From Clostridiaceae bacterium (GTDB taxonomy: Bacteria > Bacillota > Clostridia > Peptostreptococcales > Tindalliaceae): DNA of 64,000 bases. Below the pieces are notes generated by a model that saw only the letters and a list, made by a program, of their open reading frames with translations, made no database searches and was not told where the DNA came from. The stretch is taken from assembly GCA_024635995.1 (NCBI GenBank), contig JAGXHW010000006.1:1-64000 (forward strand), in the 5' to 3' direction. Shown here piece by piece: positions 983 through 47,735 of this stretch. Within the stretch, counting starts at the first letter, position 1. Each line of letters begins with the position of its first letter. The position numbers were made by a program, and so were the translations under genes.

Positions 983-1060
983 TGTTATAATTATTTGGAA
1001 TACAAGTTCGTTGAAGGTTGATTCCTTTTAAAGCTGATTTATTTAACCCAGGGGTGCTAT

Positions 1061-1672
1061 ATGAAACTGTCAAGCATTGAAAAAATCAGTGTTATCATCA
1101 TTATTGCCATTATTTTTATGATTTTTAATCCCTTTGGGGCAGCTGTATATTCTGGTCCGGCCATGCTCGACGTGCCGGACCAGGTTACTTTGTCATCTCC
1201 ACAGTCAATAACGATGGATATCAAGGATGAAAGCATTAATTTGGAATTGTTGGCCACTTATGAAGTGAAAGCGGGTGTCAGAAGTCGCAAGAATTATTAT
1301 TTTGATGATTCATCCGCTGTTTCCCCCATGGACCTGGTTTTGGCCTGGGGCAGTTTAAACGAGAAAGAAGCAGTGGAAGGAGTCAATTACCGACAATCCG
1401 GCCGTTGGTACTATTACCAGACAAAAGAAGAGGCGCCGGTGACCTTGTCTTACATCAATGCTCATTCGGCCAACACCCATATCATTCCTGCCACCAAAGA
1501 AGTACATCGTCAACTGAAGAAAATGAGGGAAAATAATTATGTGGTGATGTCTGGCTATTTGGTCAATGTAAGTTTTCCATCAGGTGGTGTCTGGAAAACC
1601 AGCACAACAAGAACCGATGCCGGCAATGGTTCCTGTGAGATCTTTTATGTTGAATCTGTTGAAATCAGATAA
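1061..1672 (+). CDS. Conserved hypothetical protein with one N-terminal TM/signal anchor
   Basis: Hydrophobic N-terminus; motifs ...LAWGSL...QSGRWYYY...HSANTHIIPA...GYLVNV...GNGSCEIFYVESV resemble a widespread unnamed bacterial family (recalled, not searched). Confidence 0.7.
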   Translation: MKLSSIEKISVIIIIAIIFMIFNPFGAAVYSGPAMLDVPDQVTLSSPQSITMDIKDESINLELLATYEVKAGVRSRKNYYFDDSSAVSPMDLVLAWGSLNEKEAVEGVNYRQSGRWYYYQTKEEAPVTLSYINAHSANTHIIPATKEVHRQLKKMRENNYVVMSGYLVNVSFPSGGVWKTSTTRTDAGNGSCEIFYVESVEIR

Positions 1673-22471: not shown

Positions 22472-22921
22472 TTGAGAAAATGCCTCGTTGCCAACCACAA
22501 AGGCTATACGTTACTTGAACTGCTCATCGTGATTGCCCTGTTGGGTTTGATGATGAGCATTGCTTTTCCTGACCTGTTCACTCTACGTGACAGACTGACC
22601 CTGCAAACCACCGCCCAGGAACTGGAAAGTGCCATTAAACTGGCCCGTCAGCTGAGCGCTGATGAAGACCGGGAGTATGTGGTGGAGCTGACCAGCGCAC
22701 GCTTTGCTGTGAGGGAAAACCGGTTGGGTTCCACACGGGTGGTGTCCCAGTATTATCCTGACGGCATCAAACGAAACCCCGCCTCAGACCACCGACTGGT
22801 GGTGAACCGGGACGGTCTCACCGGCTATAACAAATTTATTTTGGAAAATGGCAGGAAACAGCGAATTGATGTCGAAATACATATAGGTACCGGAAGAGTG
22901 ACGGTGTCACAGGTGTATTAA
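22472..22921 (+). CDS. Type IV pseudopilin (GspH/FimT-like)
   Basis: KGYTLLELLIVIALLGLMMSIAFPDLF. Confidence 0.85.
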   Translation: MRKCLVANHKGYTLLELLIVIALLGLMMSIAFPDLFTLRDRLTLQTTAQELESAIKLARQLSADEDREYVVELTSARFAVRENRLGSTRVVSQYYPDGIKRNPASDHRLVVNRDGLTGYNKFILENGRKQRIDVEIHIGTGRVTVSQVY

Positions 22922-22986
22922 CAGGATTCTTCTTATTAAAAACTGACATTTGAACCACAACTATTGTTCGCAACAGGGAGATCACA

Positions 22987-23466
22987 ATGAAAAATACACA
23001 TAACATCAGGGCCGGAAAGGCCCTGCTAAACCAACGGGGTTTTACCCTGATAGAGGTTTTAATTGCATTGTTAGTACTGGGAGTTATTATTGTCCCGGTC
23101 AGCAATGCTTTTTTGCAGTCAGTTCATTTAAACCAGCACTTGCAGCAGCAGGTGGCCGCTGTGCGGGAAGCCCAGACAGCCATGGAAGTGACCCTGTCGT
23201 CGCTGAGCGGGGCCTCGTTTGGTGCAACAGATGGTCATGAAGAAATCTGCAGTCTATTGTCAGAAATTGTCACATCTGGTCTACTTGAAGCGGACACTAC
23301 AGTTGAAATAGACTCGTTACATGAAGACAGCCCTTTTTTCGTCATAACAGTGGTCAGCAGCTATGAAACGAAAGATACTACTGGCAACTTCACCCTCACC
23401 TCTGTTCACCTGCCCGGCGAGGTGCCCTGGCTGACGCCTACAGAATACAGGGTGGTGACGCCATGA
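22987..23466 (+). CDS. Type IV prepilin-like protein (PilV-like)
   Basis: QRGFTLIEVLIALLVLGVIIVPVSNAFLQ. Confidence 0.85.
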   Translation: MKNTHNIRAGKALLNQRGFTLIEVLIALLVLGVIIVPVSNAFLQSVHLNQHLQQQVAAVREAQTAMEVTLSSLSGASFGATDGHEEICSLLSEIVTSGLLEADTTVEIDSLHEDSPFFVITVVSSYETKDTTGNFTLTSVHLPGEVPWLTPTEYRVVTP

Positions 23467-24035
23467 AGAAATGTAATGGCCAGTACCTCATAAACCAAAA
23501 AGGCCTGACCCTGATTGAAGTCATCATCAGCTTTGCACTGTTGTCACTGATTATGCTTGCTGTTTTTCAGTTTCACTTCTTTATCATAGTCAACAGCAAG
23601 GCACAGGCAGAAACCATGGAAACAGAACAAAACCTGCGACAGGCCATGGGGTTCATTGAAAAACGTCTTCGTGAGATGGACAACCAAACCCTGCAATACG
23701 TCCCTGCCCAGCAAACATTCAAAAGCCGTATGAAGCGAACCGACGGCCCTGGGCAGATCACTGTCTGGATGGACTTCAGCGGTAGAATCCGGAACAGTCT
23801 AAACACCTGGTTGTACCATGATAAAACGTCAAAAACCCTGCGTGTAAGCAAAAACAGGGAACACAATGTGCTTCATTTGAACATTGACACAGTGGAAGTG
23901 GAAGAAATCACCCCTGGCTCCCTCATCAAAATCACCCTGACGTCAACACCGGATCATAAAGGGAGCAATGACACAGCAGTTTCCCATTCCATGGTAATGC
24001 ACCTGAATTACGCACAAGAAGAGGCAGCGTTATGA
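23463..24035 (+). CDS. Type IV prepilin-like protein (PilW/GspJ-like)
   Basis: QKGLTLIEVIISFALLSLIMLAVFQFHF. Confidence 0.85.
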   Translation: MKKCNGQYLINQKGLTLIEVIISFALLSLIMLAVFQFHFFIIVNSKAQAETMETEQNLRQAMGFIEKRLREMDNQTLQYVPAQQTFKSRMKRTDGPGQITVWMDFSGRIRNSLNTWLYHDKTSKTLRVSKNREHNVLHLNIDTVEVEEITPGSLIKITLTSTPDHKGSNDTAVSHSMVMHLNYAQEEAAL

Positions 24036-24815: not shown

Positions 24816-24844
24816 TTGACAAATACCACAGATGGGATTAAACT
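24816..24844 (+). promoter_or_regulatory. Sigma-A-type promoter for the aromatic leader/operon
   Basis: TTGACA (24816-24821), 17-nt spacer, TAAACT (24839-24844). Confidence 0.65.
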
Positions 24845-24921
24845 GATGCTAATCTATTACAACAACCCGTGACAGAAGCTGTGGCACAACGCTGTGGCAA
24901 TTAAAACCGGAGATGATTTTA

Positions 24922-25053
24922 ATGAGAGATCTTACAATGACAAAAGTACATCAAAACGATTATTTCTTTTTTAGCTGGGGCTATTATTATTTTAGCGCCG
25001 GTACTTTTGCATTGAATAAATCCCTCCCCATTACGAAACACGGGTCTCCATGA
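24922..25053 (+). CDS. 43-aa aromatic-rich leader peptide (not in supplied ORF track)
   Basis: Manual translation MRDLTMTKVHQNDYFFFSWGYYYFSAGTFALNKSLPITKHGSP*; SD GGAG at 24909-24912; nine of eleven residues in YFFFSWGYYYF are aromatic; lies upstream of aromatic-pathway genes. Confidence 0.85.
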   Translation: MRDLTMTKVHQNDYFFFSWGYYYFSAGTFALNKSLPITKHGSP

Positions 25054-25138
25054 AGCTGAAGTGTTGATAGAATCGTTACAAACACTTTATAAGCAACGTT
25101 TAATCAGGAGGGATTTCAAACGAAATCTCTCTTTTTTA
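25018..25138 (+). promoter_or_regulatory. Transcription attenuator: antiterminator/terminator pair of the aromatic operon
   Basis: Terminator GAGGGATTTC(25108-25117)/GAAATCTCTC(25122-25131) then TTTTTTATTT. AAATCCCTCC (25018-25027, inside the leader ORF) is the exact reverse complement of GGAGGGATTT (25107-25116). Intervening stem AAGTGTT/AACACTT (25059-25065/25081-25087). Confidence 0.8.
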
Positions 25139-25248: not shown

Positions 25249-26082
25249 ATGTCAACGTTAGAAGATTTGAGAAAAAAGATTGACCAGTGCGACCGCCAGT
25301 TGGCAGCCGTATTGGAAAAAAGACTGGAAATTATCCTGGAGATCATGGCCGAAAAAAAAGACCAGCGCATGCCCATTTTCAGTAAGGAACGGGAAGACAA
25401 GGTCATTAAACAAATTGGTCATTACGTAACCAACCCAGATCTCAAGGAAGAAGTGCGCTATATTCACCGGCACGTTTTACAGAGCTGTCGCCGCATTCAG
25501 TCAAAACGTTTATTCCCCTATCACATTACGTTGGTTGGCTTTATGGGCAGTGGCAAAACCACTGTTGGTGTTGAATTATCTAAAATGCTGGCCATGGAAC
25601 AGATTGATGTGGACCGTATGATCGAAGATAAGATGAAAATGAGGGTCAGTGAAATTTTCCAACTTTATGGTGAACAGGTATTTCGTCAGTTGGAAAGCAG
25701 TGCGATTGAAGAACTTTCAAACCAGGAGAACGTCATCATCTTCTGCAGTGGTGGCGGTGTGGTGTTGAACGAAAAAAACATCGAGAACCTTAAACGCACC
25801 GGCGTGGTGGTCTGGTTAAAGGCCACACCGGAAGAAATCTACAACCGTATTTCTGATGACAACAGCCGACCCTTATTGAAAGAAGGCATGAGTGTGACGA
25901 AAATTGAGAACATGCTTCAGGGACGACTACCTCTCTATGAAAAAGCAGCGGATTTGGTCATTGAAACCGATGGTAAAACGGTGGAACAGGTGAGCCTGGA
26001 TATTGTGGACCAGTTGATGCGGAGCGACCTGGAACGAAGCACTACAGGTAAACTGGCTGAGCAGCAGGTTAGCAATCTGTGA
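25249..26082 (+). CDS. Chorismate mutase (type II)-shikimate kinase fusion
   Basis: N-terminal LEDLRKKIDQCDRQLAAVLEKRLEIILEI (CM); C-terminal GFMGSGKTTVGVELSKML...DVDRMIE...CSGGGVVL (shikimate kinase). Confidence 0.93.
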   Translation: MSTLEDLRKKIDQCDRQLAAVLEKRLEIILEIMAEKKDQRMPIFSKEREDKVIKQIGHYVTNPDLKEEVRYIHRHVLQSCRRIQSKRLFPYHITLVGFMGSGKTTVGVELSKMLAMEQIDVDRMIEDKMKMRVSEIFQLYGEQVFRQLESSAIEELSNQENVIIFCSGGGVVLNEKNIENLKRTGVVVWLKATPEEIYNRISDDNSRPLLKEGMSVTKIENMLQGRLPLYEKAADLVIETDGKTVEQVSLDIVDQLMRSDLERSTTGKLAEQQVSNL

Positions 26083-26118: not shown

Positions 26119-26916
26119 ATGATTGAAATGAAAGAACCATTGAAAAAACAAATGAAACAAACCATAAAGGTCAAAGAAGTTGAACTGGGAACAGGCACAC
26201 CGAAGATTTGCGTATCCATTATTGGTAAAAACCTGAATCAGATTCGGGAAGAAGCGGAACACATTAAAACCCTTCCGGCAGACATTGTGGAATGGCGTTT
26301 GGATTTCTTTGAAGAAGTGACCGACCGTTCCAGTATCCAGGAAGCACTGGTAGAAATCGCAGGTTTGTTACCGAAACTTCCACTGATGGTCACTTTCCGA
26401 AACAAAAAAGAGGGGGGCAACAAACACGTCAGCCCTGCAGAATATGCTATGATTAACAAAAAGGTAATCACCTCTGGGTTGGTTGACCTGGTGGATGTGG
26501 AACTGATGACGGATGAAAGTGTTATCCGGGAGCTGATTACCACAGCCAAAGACCATAAGGTATCGGTGATTATTTCAAATCATGACTTTGAAAAAACGCC
26601 ACCGGTGGACATCATGGTGTCTCGCCTGGTGAAGGCGGCAGAACTTGGGGGCGACATTCCCAAGCTGGCGGTCATGGCCACCTGTCCCAAAGATGTGCTC
26701 TCTCTGATGGAAGCCACACGACAGGTCAGGGAAGACCACGGCATTGGCCCTCTCATCACCATGTCCATGGGTGGCATTGGTACAGTCTCACGGCTGTCCG
26801 GTGAAATTTTTGGGTCGGCGCTTACCTTTGGGTCGGCCAAAAAAGCCTCTGCACCCGGCCAGATTGATGCCGCTGAACTGAAAAAAATACTCGATCTGAT
26901 GCACAAGAGTTTGTAG
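26119..26916 (+). CDS. aroD: Type I 3-dehydroquinate dehydratase
   Basis: ADIVEWRLDFFE...VIISNHDFEKTP...KLAVMATC...MSMGGIGTVSRLSGEIFGSALTFGS. Confidence 0.95.
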   Translation: MIEMKEPLKKQMKQTIKVKEVELGTGTPKICVSIIGKNLNQIREEAEHIKTLPADIVEWRLDFFEEVTDRSSIQEALVEIAGLLPKLPLMVTFRNKKEGGNKHVSPAEYAMINKKVITSGLVDLVDVELMTDESVIRELITTAKDHKVSVIISNHDFEKTPPVDIMVSRLVKAAELGGDIPKLAVMATCPKDVLSLMEATRQVREDHGIGPLITMSMGGIGTVSRLSGEIFGSALTFGSAKKASAPGQIDAAELKKILDLMHKSL

Positions 26917-26954: not shown

Positions 26955-28121
26955 ATGAAGGGCATGCAAAACAAAAAGACCCGCTTTTGTATCGTCACAA
27001 TTTTATTTTGGTTTGCCATGTACGCTTATATTCCTCAACTGCCAGGTTATGCCCGGCAAATGGGCGCCTCTTACCGCATGATTGGATTCATAACTGGGGG
27101 CTACGGTTTGACCCAGACTCTGCTGCGTATTCCCCTGGGCATTGGTTCTGACATGCTGGGGAAAAGGAAAATATTCATTGTCCTGGGATCCATGGTGGCC
27201 ACTACAAGTGCTCTTATTGTTTATTTCATGCCAAGCCCGGTCACATTGCTTGTGGCGAGACTTCTAGCAGGGGTTTCTGCCGCCACATGGGTCACCTTTA
27301 CGGTAATGTACGCCAGTTATTATCCCCCTTTGCAGGCAACAAAAGCCATTGGCATTGTCCAGTCCATGAACCGTATTGGCATGTTTACTGCCATGCTCGT
27401 CGGTGGCTATTTATCCACCCGGTTCGGTATACCATCCATCTTCATACTAAGCAGTGTGGTGGGTGTCCTGGCCCTGGTTACCAGCTTAACTTTGAAAGAA
27501 TCCAGTGACCTGGATAACAAGCGGGCCTTTCAAAAATCCGATATCCCAGCGCTGTTGCGGAATAAAAATGTCATGGCCATTTGTATATTGGGCGCTGTTT
27601 CACAGCTGATCATGTATGGTACCACCATGGGTTTCACCCCCATTGTGGCAGGTCAGTTGGGGGCCACCAACTTTCAGCTGAGCTTGCTGACCATGACCTT
27701 TATCTTTCCACAGATCATCATTTCGTTATTGTCTGGCACCACTTTTTTGAAACTCTTTGGAGAACGAAACACCCTGTTCATAGGGTTTTTCTTTGTGACC
27801 TTTACAAGTTTGATGACGCCCTTGGTACCCAGCCTGTACATTTTGTTTTTGCTTCAGCTCATTTCCGGTATAGGCACCGGCATTGTCTTTCCCTTGCTGA
27901 CAGGCTTGGTGATTCGGGATGTGGCGGAATACCTACGTAACACCACCATGGGTTTCTATCAGGCATTCTTTGGCCTTGGCATGATTGCCGGCCCCATCAT
28001 CCTGGGGTTTGTCAGCCAGGCATGGTCATTGACGTACGGTTTCTGGACCATCGGATTCATCGGCATTTTCGCACTCATTTTTGTCTTTCAACATCAGTTC
28101 ACAGTTGCTGAACAAGAGTAA
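26955..28121 (+). CDS. MFS transporter
   Basis: Twelve-TM-like hydrophobic pattern; GIGSDMLGKRK loop motif; within the aromatic operon. Confidence 0.85.
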   Translation: MKGMQNKKTRFCIVTILFWFAMYAYIPQLPGYARQMGASYRMIGFITGGYGLTQTLLRIPLGIGSDMLGKRKIFIVLGSMVATTSALIVYFMPSPVTLLVARLLAGVSAATWVTFTVMYASYYPPLQATKAIGIVQSMNRIGMFTAMLVGGYLSTRFGIPSIFILSSVVGVLALVTSLTLKESSDLDNKRAFQKSDIPALLRNKNVMAICILGAVSQLIMYGTTMGFTPIVAGQLGATNFQLSLLTMTFIFPQIIISLLSGTTFLKLFGERNTLFIGFFFVTFTSLMTPLVPSLYILFLLQLISGIGTGIVFPLLTGLVIRDVAEYLRNTTMGFYQAFFGLGMIAGPIILGFVSQAWSLTYGFWTIGFIGIFALIFVFQHQFTVAEQE

Positions 28122-28145: not shown

Positions 28146-29009
28146 ATGACAACACAGCAAATCACAGGGGCCACTGGTTTGGCGGCTCTGCTGGGATCCC
28201 CGGTGGAGCACAGCCAATCGCCCCTGATTCATAACACCGCTTTTCAGTACCTTCAACTGCCCTGCGTTTACCTGGCCTTTGATGTGAAGCCTGAGAACTT
28301 AGAAGAAGCCGTGGAAGGGCTCAAAGCTGTGAATGCCATCGGCTTTAACTTAACCATGCCCCATAAACAGGCAGTGATCCCGTATTTGCAGGGATTATCA
28401 GAAGAAGCGTCCATCATTGGTGCTGTGAACACAGTAAAGGTGGAAGGAATCCGACTGACCGGTTATAACACCGACTGCCAAGGCTTTCAACTATCCTTGC
28501 AGGATGTTGGGTTTAAAGCAGAAGGGAAGAAAGCGGTGATCGCTGGTTCCGGCGGTGCTGCCCGCAGCGTGGCCCTGGCTTTGGCAAAAGAAAAGGTGAG
28601 TCAACTGGTGCTTTTGAACCGCAGCCTCCATCGTGCGGAAGAAATCGCTGAGATGCTGCAGGAAGCCACTCCTGAGATTAACGTGAAAGTGGCCTCCCTG
28701 AACCAGGAAAACCTGGCAAGGGAGTTGGAAGAAGCGGAACTACTGGTCAACAGCACACCCTTGGGTATGGACGAAAGGGGTAGTGAAAGCATTGTGGAGG
28801 ATGTATCCATGTTAAAACCCCATTTACTGGTGTTTGACCTGCTGTATTATCCACCCCGCACTCATTTAATGAAGCAGGCGGAAGCGCAGGGATGTAAAGC
28901 CGTCAATGGGTTGAACATGCTGGTGTGGCAGGCGGCCCTAGCTTTTGAAATATGGACTGGAGTGCCCATGCCGGTAGAAATAGTGAAGAAACAATTTACA
29001 TCGCTGTAG
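28146..29009 (+). CDS. aroE: Shikimate dehydrogenase
   Basis: GSPVEHSQSPLIHN; LTMPHKQAVIP; GAVNTV; GYNTDCQGF; GSGGAARSV. Confidence 0.93.
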   Translation: MTTQQITGATGLAALLGSPVEHSQSPLIHNTAFQYLQLPCVYLAFDVKPENLEEAVEGLKAVNAIGFNLTMPHKQAVIPYLQGLSEEASIIGAVNTVKVEGIRLTGYNTDCQGFQLSLQDVGFKAEGKKAVIAGSGGAARSVALALAKEKVSQLVLLNRSLHRAEEIAEMLQEATPEINVKVASLNQENLARELEEAELLVNSTPLGMDERGSESIVEDVSMLKPHLLVFDLLYYPPRTHLMKQAEAQGCKAVNGLNMLVWQAALAFEIWTGVPMPVEIVKKQFTSL

Positions 29010-31232: not shown

Positions 31233-32702
31233 ATGATGAGCAGAATGAATTCCATGAAAGACACGTATGCAAAATTGACGGAAGATCAGATAGCTGAAAT
31301 CGAAGAAAAGTTTGCAAAAGCAGATGCGGCACAGAAGATTTTTGAAAAGTGGAGTCAGGAAGACATTGACCGTACCATTCAGGCCATTGCCTGGAAAGTG
31401 GCCAACACCCAGACGTTCAAAGAACTGGTGAAAATGAGCATCGAAGAAACCAATTTTGGTGACCCTGTCAGCCGCGAAAACAAACGTTTTAAAATCAGAG
31501 GCGTACTTCGTGATGCACTGCGTCAAAAGAGCGTGGGCATCATCGAAGAAATGCCCGAAAGAGGCATTGTGAAATACGCCAAGCCTGTGGGTGTCATCGC
31601 TTGTGTCATCCCCGCCACCAACCCGGACTTAACCCCTGCTGGCAACGCCATTTATGCCCTGAAGGCACGTAATGCCATTATCTTTTCACCCCATCCTCGG
31701 GGCGTTAAAACTGGCAGACGCACCATTGAACTGATGCGGGAAGGTTTGCGACAGGTAGGTGCACCGGAAGATTTGATTCAGATTTTAGGGGACACAAAAA
31801 TTAACAAAGAACTTTCTGAAGCACTTAACGCCAAATGTGACTTGGTCATCGCCACAGGCGGCCAGGGCGTTGTAAGAAGGGCTTATCATTCCGGTACACC
31901 TGCTTATGGTGTGGGTGCTGGTAACGCCACCATGGTCTGGGATGAAACCGCCCGTGAAGACCTGCATACAGCAGCTCACAACACCATGCTTTCCAAGACA
32001 TCTGATTTCGGATCAGGCTGTTCCGCCGATGGCAACGTGGTAATTCATGAAAGCATTTACGACGACGCCGTTAAAGCCCTTGAAGAAGTGGGCGGATACT
32101 TATTGAATGAAGAAGAGCAGGAAGCTGTGAAAAAAGTGATGTGGGATGAAGCCTGTCACCGTCTACCCAACTCCGTTGCCCAGTCACCTCAAAAAATGGC
32201 CGAAATGGCAGGGTTTTCTATCGGAGAAGACCGGAAATTCCTGGTGGCCAAAGGCACTGGTTCTTTCACAGAAAGCTATGAAGACGTTTGGTGCCGGGAA
32301 AAACTAACCACTTTATTGGCAGTTCACAAATATGAAGGTGATTTCCAAAACGCCATTGACATTGTCATGGCCATTCATGATGTTGGTGGCGTGGGTCACA
32401 GCGTGGGGATCTTTTCTTATGATACCGATCATATACATCGTTTGGCCATGGAAGCCCATGTTGGCAGAATCATGGTGCGTCAGCCTCAGTCAAAGGCCAA
32501 TGCAGGCGCCTTTACCAACGGCATGCCTATGACCTCCAGCATCGGGTGCGGTACCTGGGGCGGCAATGCCACCTCTGAAAACGTACATTTGCATCACTAC
32601 ATGAACACCACCTGGGTTTCGATGGCGATCCCCGAAGACAAGCCCAGCGATGAAGCATTATTTGGAGAATTCTACGAACCCGAACGAGAAGGTCGGGTGT
32701 AG
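31233..32702 (+). CDS. CoA-acylating aldehyde dehydrogenase (EutE/SauS-like)
   Basis: PVGVIACVIPATNP; SKTSDFGSGCSADG catalytic Cys; GCGTWGGNATSENV. Confidence 0.85.
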   Translation: MMSRMNSMKDTYAKLTEDQIAEIEEKFAKADAAQKIFEKWSQEDIDRTIQAIAWKVANTQTFKELVKMSIEETNFGDPVSRENKRFKIRGVLRDALRQKSVGIIEEMPERGIVKYAKPVGVIACVIPATNPDLTPAGNAIYALKARNAIIFSPHPRGVKTGRRTIELMREGLRQVGAPEDLIQILGDTKINKELSEALNAKCDLVIATGGQGVVRRAYHSGTPAYGVGAGNATMVWDETAREDLHTAAHNTMLSKTSDFGSGCSADGNVVIHESIYDDAVKALEEVGGYLLNEEEQEAVKKVMWDEACHRLPNSVAQSPQKMAEMAGFSIGEDRKFLVAKGTGSFTESYEDVWCREKLTTLLAVHKYEGDFQNAIDIVMAIHDVGGVGHSVGIFSYDTDHIHRLAMEAHVGRIMVRQPQSKANAGAFTNGMPMTSSIGCGTWGGNATSENVHLHHYMNTTWVSMAIPEDKPSDEALFGEFYEPEREGRV

Positions 32703-47106: not shown

Positions 47107-47111
47107 AAAGC

Positions 47112-47735
47112 AAGGAACAGCAGTGGTGCAGTATTCTAGTCAGAACCACCGGTTACTGAGGGCGGGCCTAAAAATCCGCAAAAGGGCACATCGATGAAGT
47201 TCCTGGTTTGGGCTTGCGACGCCCAGTCGTGGGTCTTTTCTGGGAGTAAGAAGATGGGGGCGATCCGCAATGGCATGCGGGCGTTGACCCTCGCTTCGTG
47301 GAGGCCTATCTCGGATCAGACTGAGAAGGTAGAAACCTGCGTAGGCGTCTTGACGGACAGCAAAGCGCGCAGAGTAGCCTGCCTTGAGTGGGACGAGACG
47401 ATAGTAGGATCAGATTCTTGGAGCCAGGGCCCGGCAAAGAGGATAATTGCCTACTGAAACTCCTCCTGCAAAAGAGGCTAAGAACCGGTGACACTGTAGA
47501 GGAAATCTCCTAGACTGTTCGCAAGAAACCTTTTGGGGATTACAGTGCGGACTAAGTGGCAATCCAGTCCTGTGTATGGTGACATAGCAGAGGCTTCTTT
47601 AAAGGGAAACCGCTGTGCTGGCGACACGCAGTAGAGGTCGGGGAAAACTTACTGGACCTAAGCCGTAAAATTTACCTAACGGGTTACCACTGTGAGTTTC
47701 TGCTGATAGCCGACGCTATCAGCTTTTTATTTTTT
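47112..47735 (+). ncRNA. OLE (ornate large extremophilic) RNA
   Basis: About 620-nt non-coding, locally structured interval between the ispA/PAP2 genes and an OapA-like gene followed by dxs, which is the known OLE context. Terminal arms CAGTGGT (47121) and ACCACTG (47686); 3' terminator GCTGATAGC/GCTATCAGC plus T tract. Confidence 0.85.

Follow-up and report, generated by a model that had tools for sequence, protein, structure and literature searches.

A leader-peptide locus upstream of shikimate-pathway genes as a probable ribosome-mediated transcription attenuator of a mainly clostridial family

The window (the whole stretch of DNA analysed, 64,000 nucleotides of a Clostridiaceae genome) carries a short open reading frame rich in aromatic codons, followed by an intrinsic terminator and four genes in the same orientation. 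The features of this locus are as follows, with pairings between numbered RNA regions written as 1:2, 2:3 and 3:4.

24816-24844, + strand: promoter-like TTGACA-17-TAAACT (TTGACA 24816-24821, TAAACT 24839-24844; 10 of 12 matches)
24909-24912, + strand: Shine-Dalgarno GGAG of the leader ORF, 9 nt before the ATG at 24922
24922-25053, + strand: leader ORF of 43 codons, encoding MRDLTMTKVHQNDYFFFSWGYYYFSAGTFALNKSLPITKHGSP, of an unannotated aromatic leader-peptide family
24924-24949, + strand: region 1, pairing with 25001-25026 to give the 1:2 hairpin (from minimum free energy folds, the family swap test and a consensus with double changes)
24961-24993, + strand: control codons Y F F F S W G Y Y Y F, read from the sequence and containing the family core W-G-[FY]n-S-A-G in part
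24974-25002, + strand: apical hairpin P1 (CUGGGGCU / AGCGCYGG), with a G-G mismatch (24979 x 24997) and four aromatic codons in its loop
25018-25027, + strand: region 2, AAAUCCCUCC, the candidate antiterminator arm within the leader ORF, assigned by complementarity to region 3
25107-25116, + strand: region 3, GGAGGGAUUU, common to the candidate antiterminator (with region 2) and the terminator (with region 4)
25106-25137, + strand: intrinsic terminator 3:4 and U tract (stem 25106-25133, 12 pairs, 4-nt loop, -14.5 kcal/mol)
25249-26082, + strand: chorismate mutase-shikimate kinase (CM-SK) fusion of 277 aa (CM domain residues 4-84, SK residues about 92-258)
26119-26916, + strand: aroD, type I 3-dehydroquinate dehydratase (TIGR01093, 237 bits; cut-off 139)
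26955-28121, + strand: MFS transporter (PF07690, E 8e-47)
28146-29009, + strand: aroE, shikimate dehydrogenase (TIGR00507, 252 bits; cut-off 200)

The promoter, Shine-Dalgarno, 43-codon frame, aromatic run, terminator and 10-nt complement had all been described in a sequence-only reading of this DNA, and each was recovered base for base when the sequence was re-examined. Residues 14-24 of the leader (YFFFSWGYYYF) are aromatic at 9 of 11 positions, and the window DNA AAATCCCTCC (25018-25027) and GGAGGGATTT (25107-25116) are reverse complements without a mismatch. A second ATG in the same frame, at 24913, abuts the Shine-Dalgarno and is unlikely to serve as the start. The downstream genes, read earlier as a CM-SK fusion, aroD, an MFS transporter and aroE under an aromatic attenuator, are confirmed as such by domain and family matches. 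In the wider neighbourhood, three genes with prepilin-like N-termini (GYTLLELLIV, GFTLIEVLIA, GLTLIEVIIS) lie just 5' of the leader at 22472-24035, a SauS-like acylating aldehyde dehydrogenase (31233-32702; NF047625, 445 bits, below the cut-off of 600) follows a hydroxymethylglutaryl-CoA lyase-like gene, and a full-length OLE RNA (RF01071, 463 bits) occupies 47107-47706 on the + strand.

The leader peptide matched no Pfam or NCBIfam model, and none of the 4227 Rfam models matched the window leader at the gathering score or at E <= 1, bar a weak chance match on the opposite strand. This result bears on T-box-type control, in which codons in the P1 loop would read uncharged tRNA-Tyr or tRNA-Phe, a reading suggested by the presence of aromatic codons in a hairpin loop 5' of a terminator. 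No T-box was matched in the window leader at those thresholds, although the same search does find a T-box at another locus (L062); in addition, the sequence around the terminator shows no T-box consensus, and the reading frame stays open over its whole length. Control of this type is hardly credible here.

The orthologous CM-SK gene has the same leader, terminator and complement 5' of it in Anoxynatronum buryatiense (L002, of the same genus as the window) and in two loci from more distant genomes (L003 and L037), and the promoter-like hexamers recur with the same spacing 5' of the leaders in L002 and L003. Across the CM-SK loci the two arms change in concert, from AAATCCCTCC:GGAGGGATTT to AAATCCCTTC:GAAGGGATTT. 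This recurrence, together with the 124 curated loci described below, excludes a chance find in the window.

Scanning genome contigs with the CM-SK protein alone yielded no leader loci, whereas a degenerate DNA pattern of the leader core succeeded. In 40 of 297 genomes from the order, a 26-base core pattern matched 47 places, the reversed control matching about 3; the pattern assumes no reading frame, and the places it matched fall in open frames with a terminator 3' of them and, in most cases, aroF as the next gene. With one genome per species, the degenerate pattern returned 79 stretches, a few of them chance hits, mostly from Clostridium, Alkaliphilus-like and other Clostridia, but also from Megasphaera and Vulcanibacillus. 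Matches in Flavobacterium, Bacteroidetes and Marinimicrobia (L082, L095, L130, L148) were set aside as chance, as they score low against the profile and, where the terminator was looked for, lack a convincing one. A 32-column peptide profile placed members in 64 of 198 sampled genomes of the order (about a third) and in 6 of 398 genomes of a phylum-wide sample, the window's own included; the window leader scores E 1.9e-14 against profile A1, of which it is itself one row. Among the members are acetogens of industrial interest, namely Clostridium ljungdahlii, C. drakei, C. ragsdalei and C. magnum. The curated set comprises 124 loci and its non-redundant subset 87, with a core of W-G-[F/Y]n-S-A-G in which n = 2-7, and a Shine-Dalgarno-like motif precedes an in-frame start in 78 of the 87 family leaders. 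Conservation of the aromatic run and of the alternative pairing in relatives had been named as the check on the original proposal, and both are conserved (124 curated loci, with the 87 non-redundant ones used for the pairing test).

Most of these leaders stand before genes of the shikimate pathway. At 90 of the 121 loci with a readable next gene, that gene encodes an AroF-type DAHP synthase, and at another 15 it belongs to a mixed group of CM-SK, shikimate kinase and CM-prephenate dehydratase (PheA) proteins. The remainder are six sodium/solute symporters (L103, L107, L126, L206, L208, L209), three AroE, one AroQ, one BASS transporter, two loci that both lie upstream of one and the same AroA, and three loci (L050, L051, L052) each followed by a copy of one protein that has only a short Iso_dh (PF00180) fragment match and no NCBIfam match. 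The position of the leader before sodium/solute symporters predicts an aromatic or shikimate-related substrate for them. Tandem or neighbouring leader copies 0.3 to 1.5 kb apart were also observed (L207 at 430 and 720, L050 at 545 and 1501, and L057/L058), and in L062 a T-box (993-1253, minus strand) lies a few hundred bases 5' of the aromatic leader.

An intrinsic terminator lies 3' of the core in at least 126 of 129 leaders, about 90-165 nt away. Region 2 was picked by best pairing, a choice that biases descriptive counts, and the control row of the segment-pair test, towards 2:3; its median start in the family is 60 nt past the Trp codon (42 in the window), in or just beyond the ORF. Many aroF leaders have UCUAAUGAG as region 2, translated as S-N-E or L-M-S, or else CUAAGA, translated as F-L-R. 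When region 2 of each of the 87 loci was paired with its own or with a permuted region 3, the means were -10.44 and -8.20 respectively (sd 0.23, z about -10); none of 10,000 permutations reached the own mean, the best giving -9.14, and this comparison is free of the best-pairing bias because every swap was re-optimised. An aligned subgroup has 181 of its 199 cells paired, compared with 53-95 when the arms are slid against each other. The best region 2 is weak or unconvincing in three loci (L203, L210, L042). Across the family, these comparisons point to an antiterminator 2:3 that would exclude the terminator and is kept by covariation.

The own-vs-swap test also brought out a second pairing, between the upstream part of the ORF and the sequence that follows the core. 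The upstream part favours its own core-to-region-2 linker with z -17.3 and its own region 2 with z -9.9, while other segment combinations range from -3.0 to +3.8. Individual folds give a single long 1:2 hairpin, and in an aligned subgroup a consensus helix emerges that carries compensatory double changes. In the window this fold comprises 24924-24930 with 25020-25026, 24935-24949 with 25001-25014 and an apical stem of 24976-24983 with 24993-25000. In untranslated RNA of the family, the 1:2 hairpin is predicted to hide the antiterminator arm. Region 1 and this long hairpin, absent from the sequence-only reading, complete the classical attenuator. The protector hairpin holds for the family and is weak over region 2 in the window copy, where the lower 1:2 helix has a folding occupancy of about 0.2, so that untranslated RNA there may leak and be only partly terminated.

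Taken as a whole, the locus is very probably a classical three-state, ribosome-mediated transcription attenuator and a member of a mainly clostridial family. Leader, terminator, mutually exclusive pairings, covariation, geometry and gene context come from sequence comparison, and we infer translation, stalling, the amino acids sensed and the role of P1. When aromatic aminoacyl-tRNA is low, a ribosome on the leader would stall on the Phe, Tyr (and perhaps Trp) codons at the apex of 1:2, opening that hairpin and freeing region 2, which would capture region 3 once transcribed and before region 4 exists, allowing the operon to be read. With charged aromatic tRNAs, the ribosome would run over region 2 and the terminator 3:4 would form. 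In untranslated RNA, 1:2 would hold region 2 and the terminator would again form, a third state that is expected to be weak in the window copy.

The geometry of the leaders is consistent with this scheme. With ribosome footprint lengths set to textbook values, a ribosome with the last P1-loop codon in its A site reaches region 2 in 0 of 124 loci, and a ribosome at the stop codon covers or has passed region 2 in 123 of 124. The stop codon of the window leader lies 24 nt 3' of region 2, which means that masking must occur during passage of the ribosome and not while it is parked at the stop. A stop codon well past region 2 is unusual among trp-type attenuators. In folds of RNA ending before region 4, mean 2:3 occupancy rose from 0.23 when untranslated to 0.68 with a stalled ribosome, being higher in 70 of the 87 loci and lower in 4. 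In full equilibrium folds that include the terminator, a stalled ribosome does not keep the terminator from prevailing in most members, indicating that the switch must be kinetic and co-transcriptional. The decision is likewise kinetic and co-transcriptional in classical attenuators.

In 85 of 87 loci the aromatic codons are flanked by the apical hairpin P1, whose arms CUGGGGCU and AGCGCYGG pair around a purine-G mismatch. Its loop varies by whole F/Y codons and is otherwise not conserved. In 84 of 87 loci a C stands immediately before the Trp codon, at the wobble position of a codon that is otherwise variable; elsewhere in these ORFs, C ends 28% of the pyrimidine-ending codons (p 1.9e-41). 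The profile-found subset, which carries no pattern bias, has AGC directly after the aromatic run in 24 of 27 leaders, compared with a share of only 15% for AGC among the Ser codons of the genes that follow them. The stem is kept where the peptide changes: SA becomes CP in L203 and L210, turning the mismatch into a pair, as does SAG to GFG in L225; WG..SAG becomes WD..GAG in L058 and L226, replacing G-C by A-U; L204 and L205 have UUG..GCA, replacing G-U by U-A; and L223 reads the same 5' arm in another frame. Since the P1 stem is kept where amino acids or frame change, the conserved peptide W-G...S-A-G is largely a shadow of RNA structure.

These observations weigh on a nascent-peptide arrest, in which the W-G-aromatic-S-A-G peptide would stall the ribosome on a free aromatic metabolite, as in TnaC, and not on low charged tRNA. 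Conservation of the non-aromatic G, S, A and G across great distances speaks for this reading, but the fixed wobble positions (the C before W, GGC and AGC) indicate that conservation tracks the RNA, the stem survives the amino-acid and frame changes just described, and the peptides differ in how many aromatic residues they carry (2 to 7). Stalling at abundance would moreover switch biosynthetic genes in the wrong direction. Peptide arrest is therefore regarded as improbable.

Slightly less probable still is a riboswitch-like RNA that binds a metabolite or protein, with P1 and its purine-G mismatch as the recognition site and the ORF secondary. The near-invariant sequence of P1 does exceed the needs of plain pairing; however, the open frame, start codon and Shine-Dalgarno are kept, the loop changes in whole F/Y codons and is not conserved beyond that, and the logic of 1:2, 2:3 and 3:4 requires no ligand.

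Within ribosome-mediated attenuation, P1 most likely acts as a pause hairpin or timing element. A broader proposal treats P1 as an additional functional element of the leader: a signal for pausing or for ribosome/RNA polymerase timing, or else a binding site, by which polymerase would be coupled to the ribosome exactly at the aromatic codons. This would give one portable cassette that has spread to most shikimate steps and likely aromatic transporters across Clostridia; this is put forward tentatively, as a possibility with the odds against it. As signals, Phe and Tyr appear better supported than Trp, which is partly a structural residue of the leader. Conservation of W-G...S-A-G at the RNA level means that the conserved Trp alone is no proof of Trp sensing, and rare family members carry Leu, Arg or Gly in its place.

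The mechanism class is already known. As in the trp and pheA attenuators of Proteobacteria, a leader peptide rich in the amino acids of the pathway accompanies mutually exclusive 1:2, 2:3 and 3:4 pairings. In contrast to them, the clostridial leaders show no sequence relation (no Rfam match), mix Phe, Tyr and Trp codons, form one leader family for many shikimate genes, contain a near-invariant apical hairpin and usually have their stop codon past region 2. The sequence-only reading had assigned such layouts to Proteobacteria and mostly T-box or TRAP control to the aromatic genes of Firmicutes; the proteobacterial likeness stands, but the contrast was too strong, as earlier work describes leader peptides in Firmicutes and, in Acholeplasma, a Phe uORF 5' of aroF (PMC2965389, PMC8632094). 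The former are histidine leader peptides before hisS/hisZ in Bacilli (Naville & Gautheret 2010, PMC2965389), which are likewise leader-peptide attenuators of Firmicutes but differ in amino acid, genes and sequence. The latter, uORFC-13-1, is given as having 24 representatives, from Acholeplasma and environmental sequences only, with at least one Phe codon (Brewer et al. 2021, PMC8632094); compared by its published description only, it resembles the present family in placing a Phe-codon uORF and a terminator directly before aroF, with attenuation proposed. Two candidate uORFs with F and Y codons before shikimate genes were described in a survey of five genomes, one of them that of Clostridium novyi (Stav et al. 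2019, PMC6429828). The main text of that paper presents them without a 1:2 or 2:3 mechanism and, compared by description only, they may be earlier sightings of part of the clostridial family (PMC6429828). In Actinobacteria, trp and ilv leader attenuators are known and none was found for Phe or Tyr (PMC1262725); they are classical and Gram-positive too, but serve another pathway branch, with no sequence relation noted. The open full-text literature, with subscription papers outside its scope, yielded no description of the family, its 1:2/2:3 structure, its spread or a clostridial aroF leader peptide. The family is widespread and absent from Rfam, Pfam and NCBIfam.

The family provides an example of an attenuator in which RNA structure accounts for much of the sequence of a conserved leader peptide. 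The signature CUGGGGCU-[F/Y codons]-AGCGCYGG followed by a terminator can be used to annotate regulons and to predict the substrates of the unassigned transporters they control. Clostridia are better known for T-boxes than for leader-peptide attenuation, and the present results suggest a major control of clostridial aromatic amino-acid synthesis, acting on aroF and other shikimate genes, that is unlisted in curated RNA and protein libraries.
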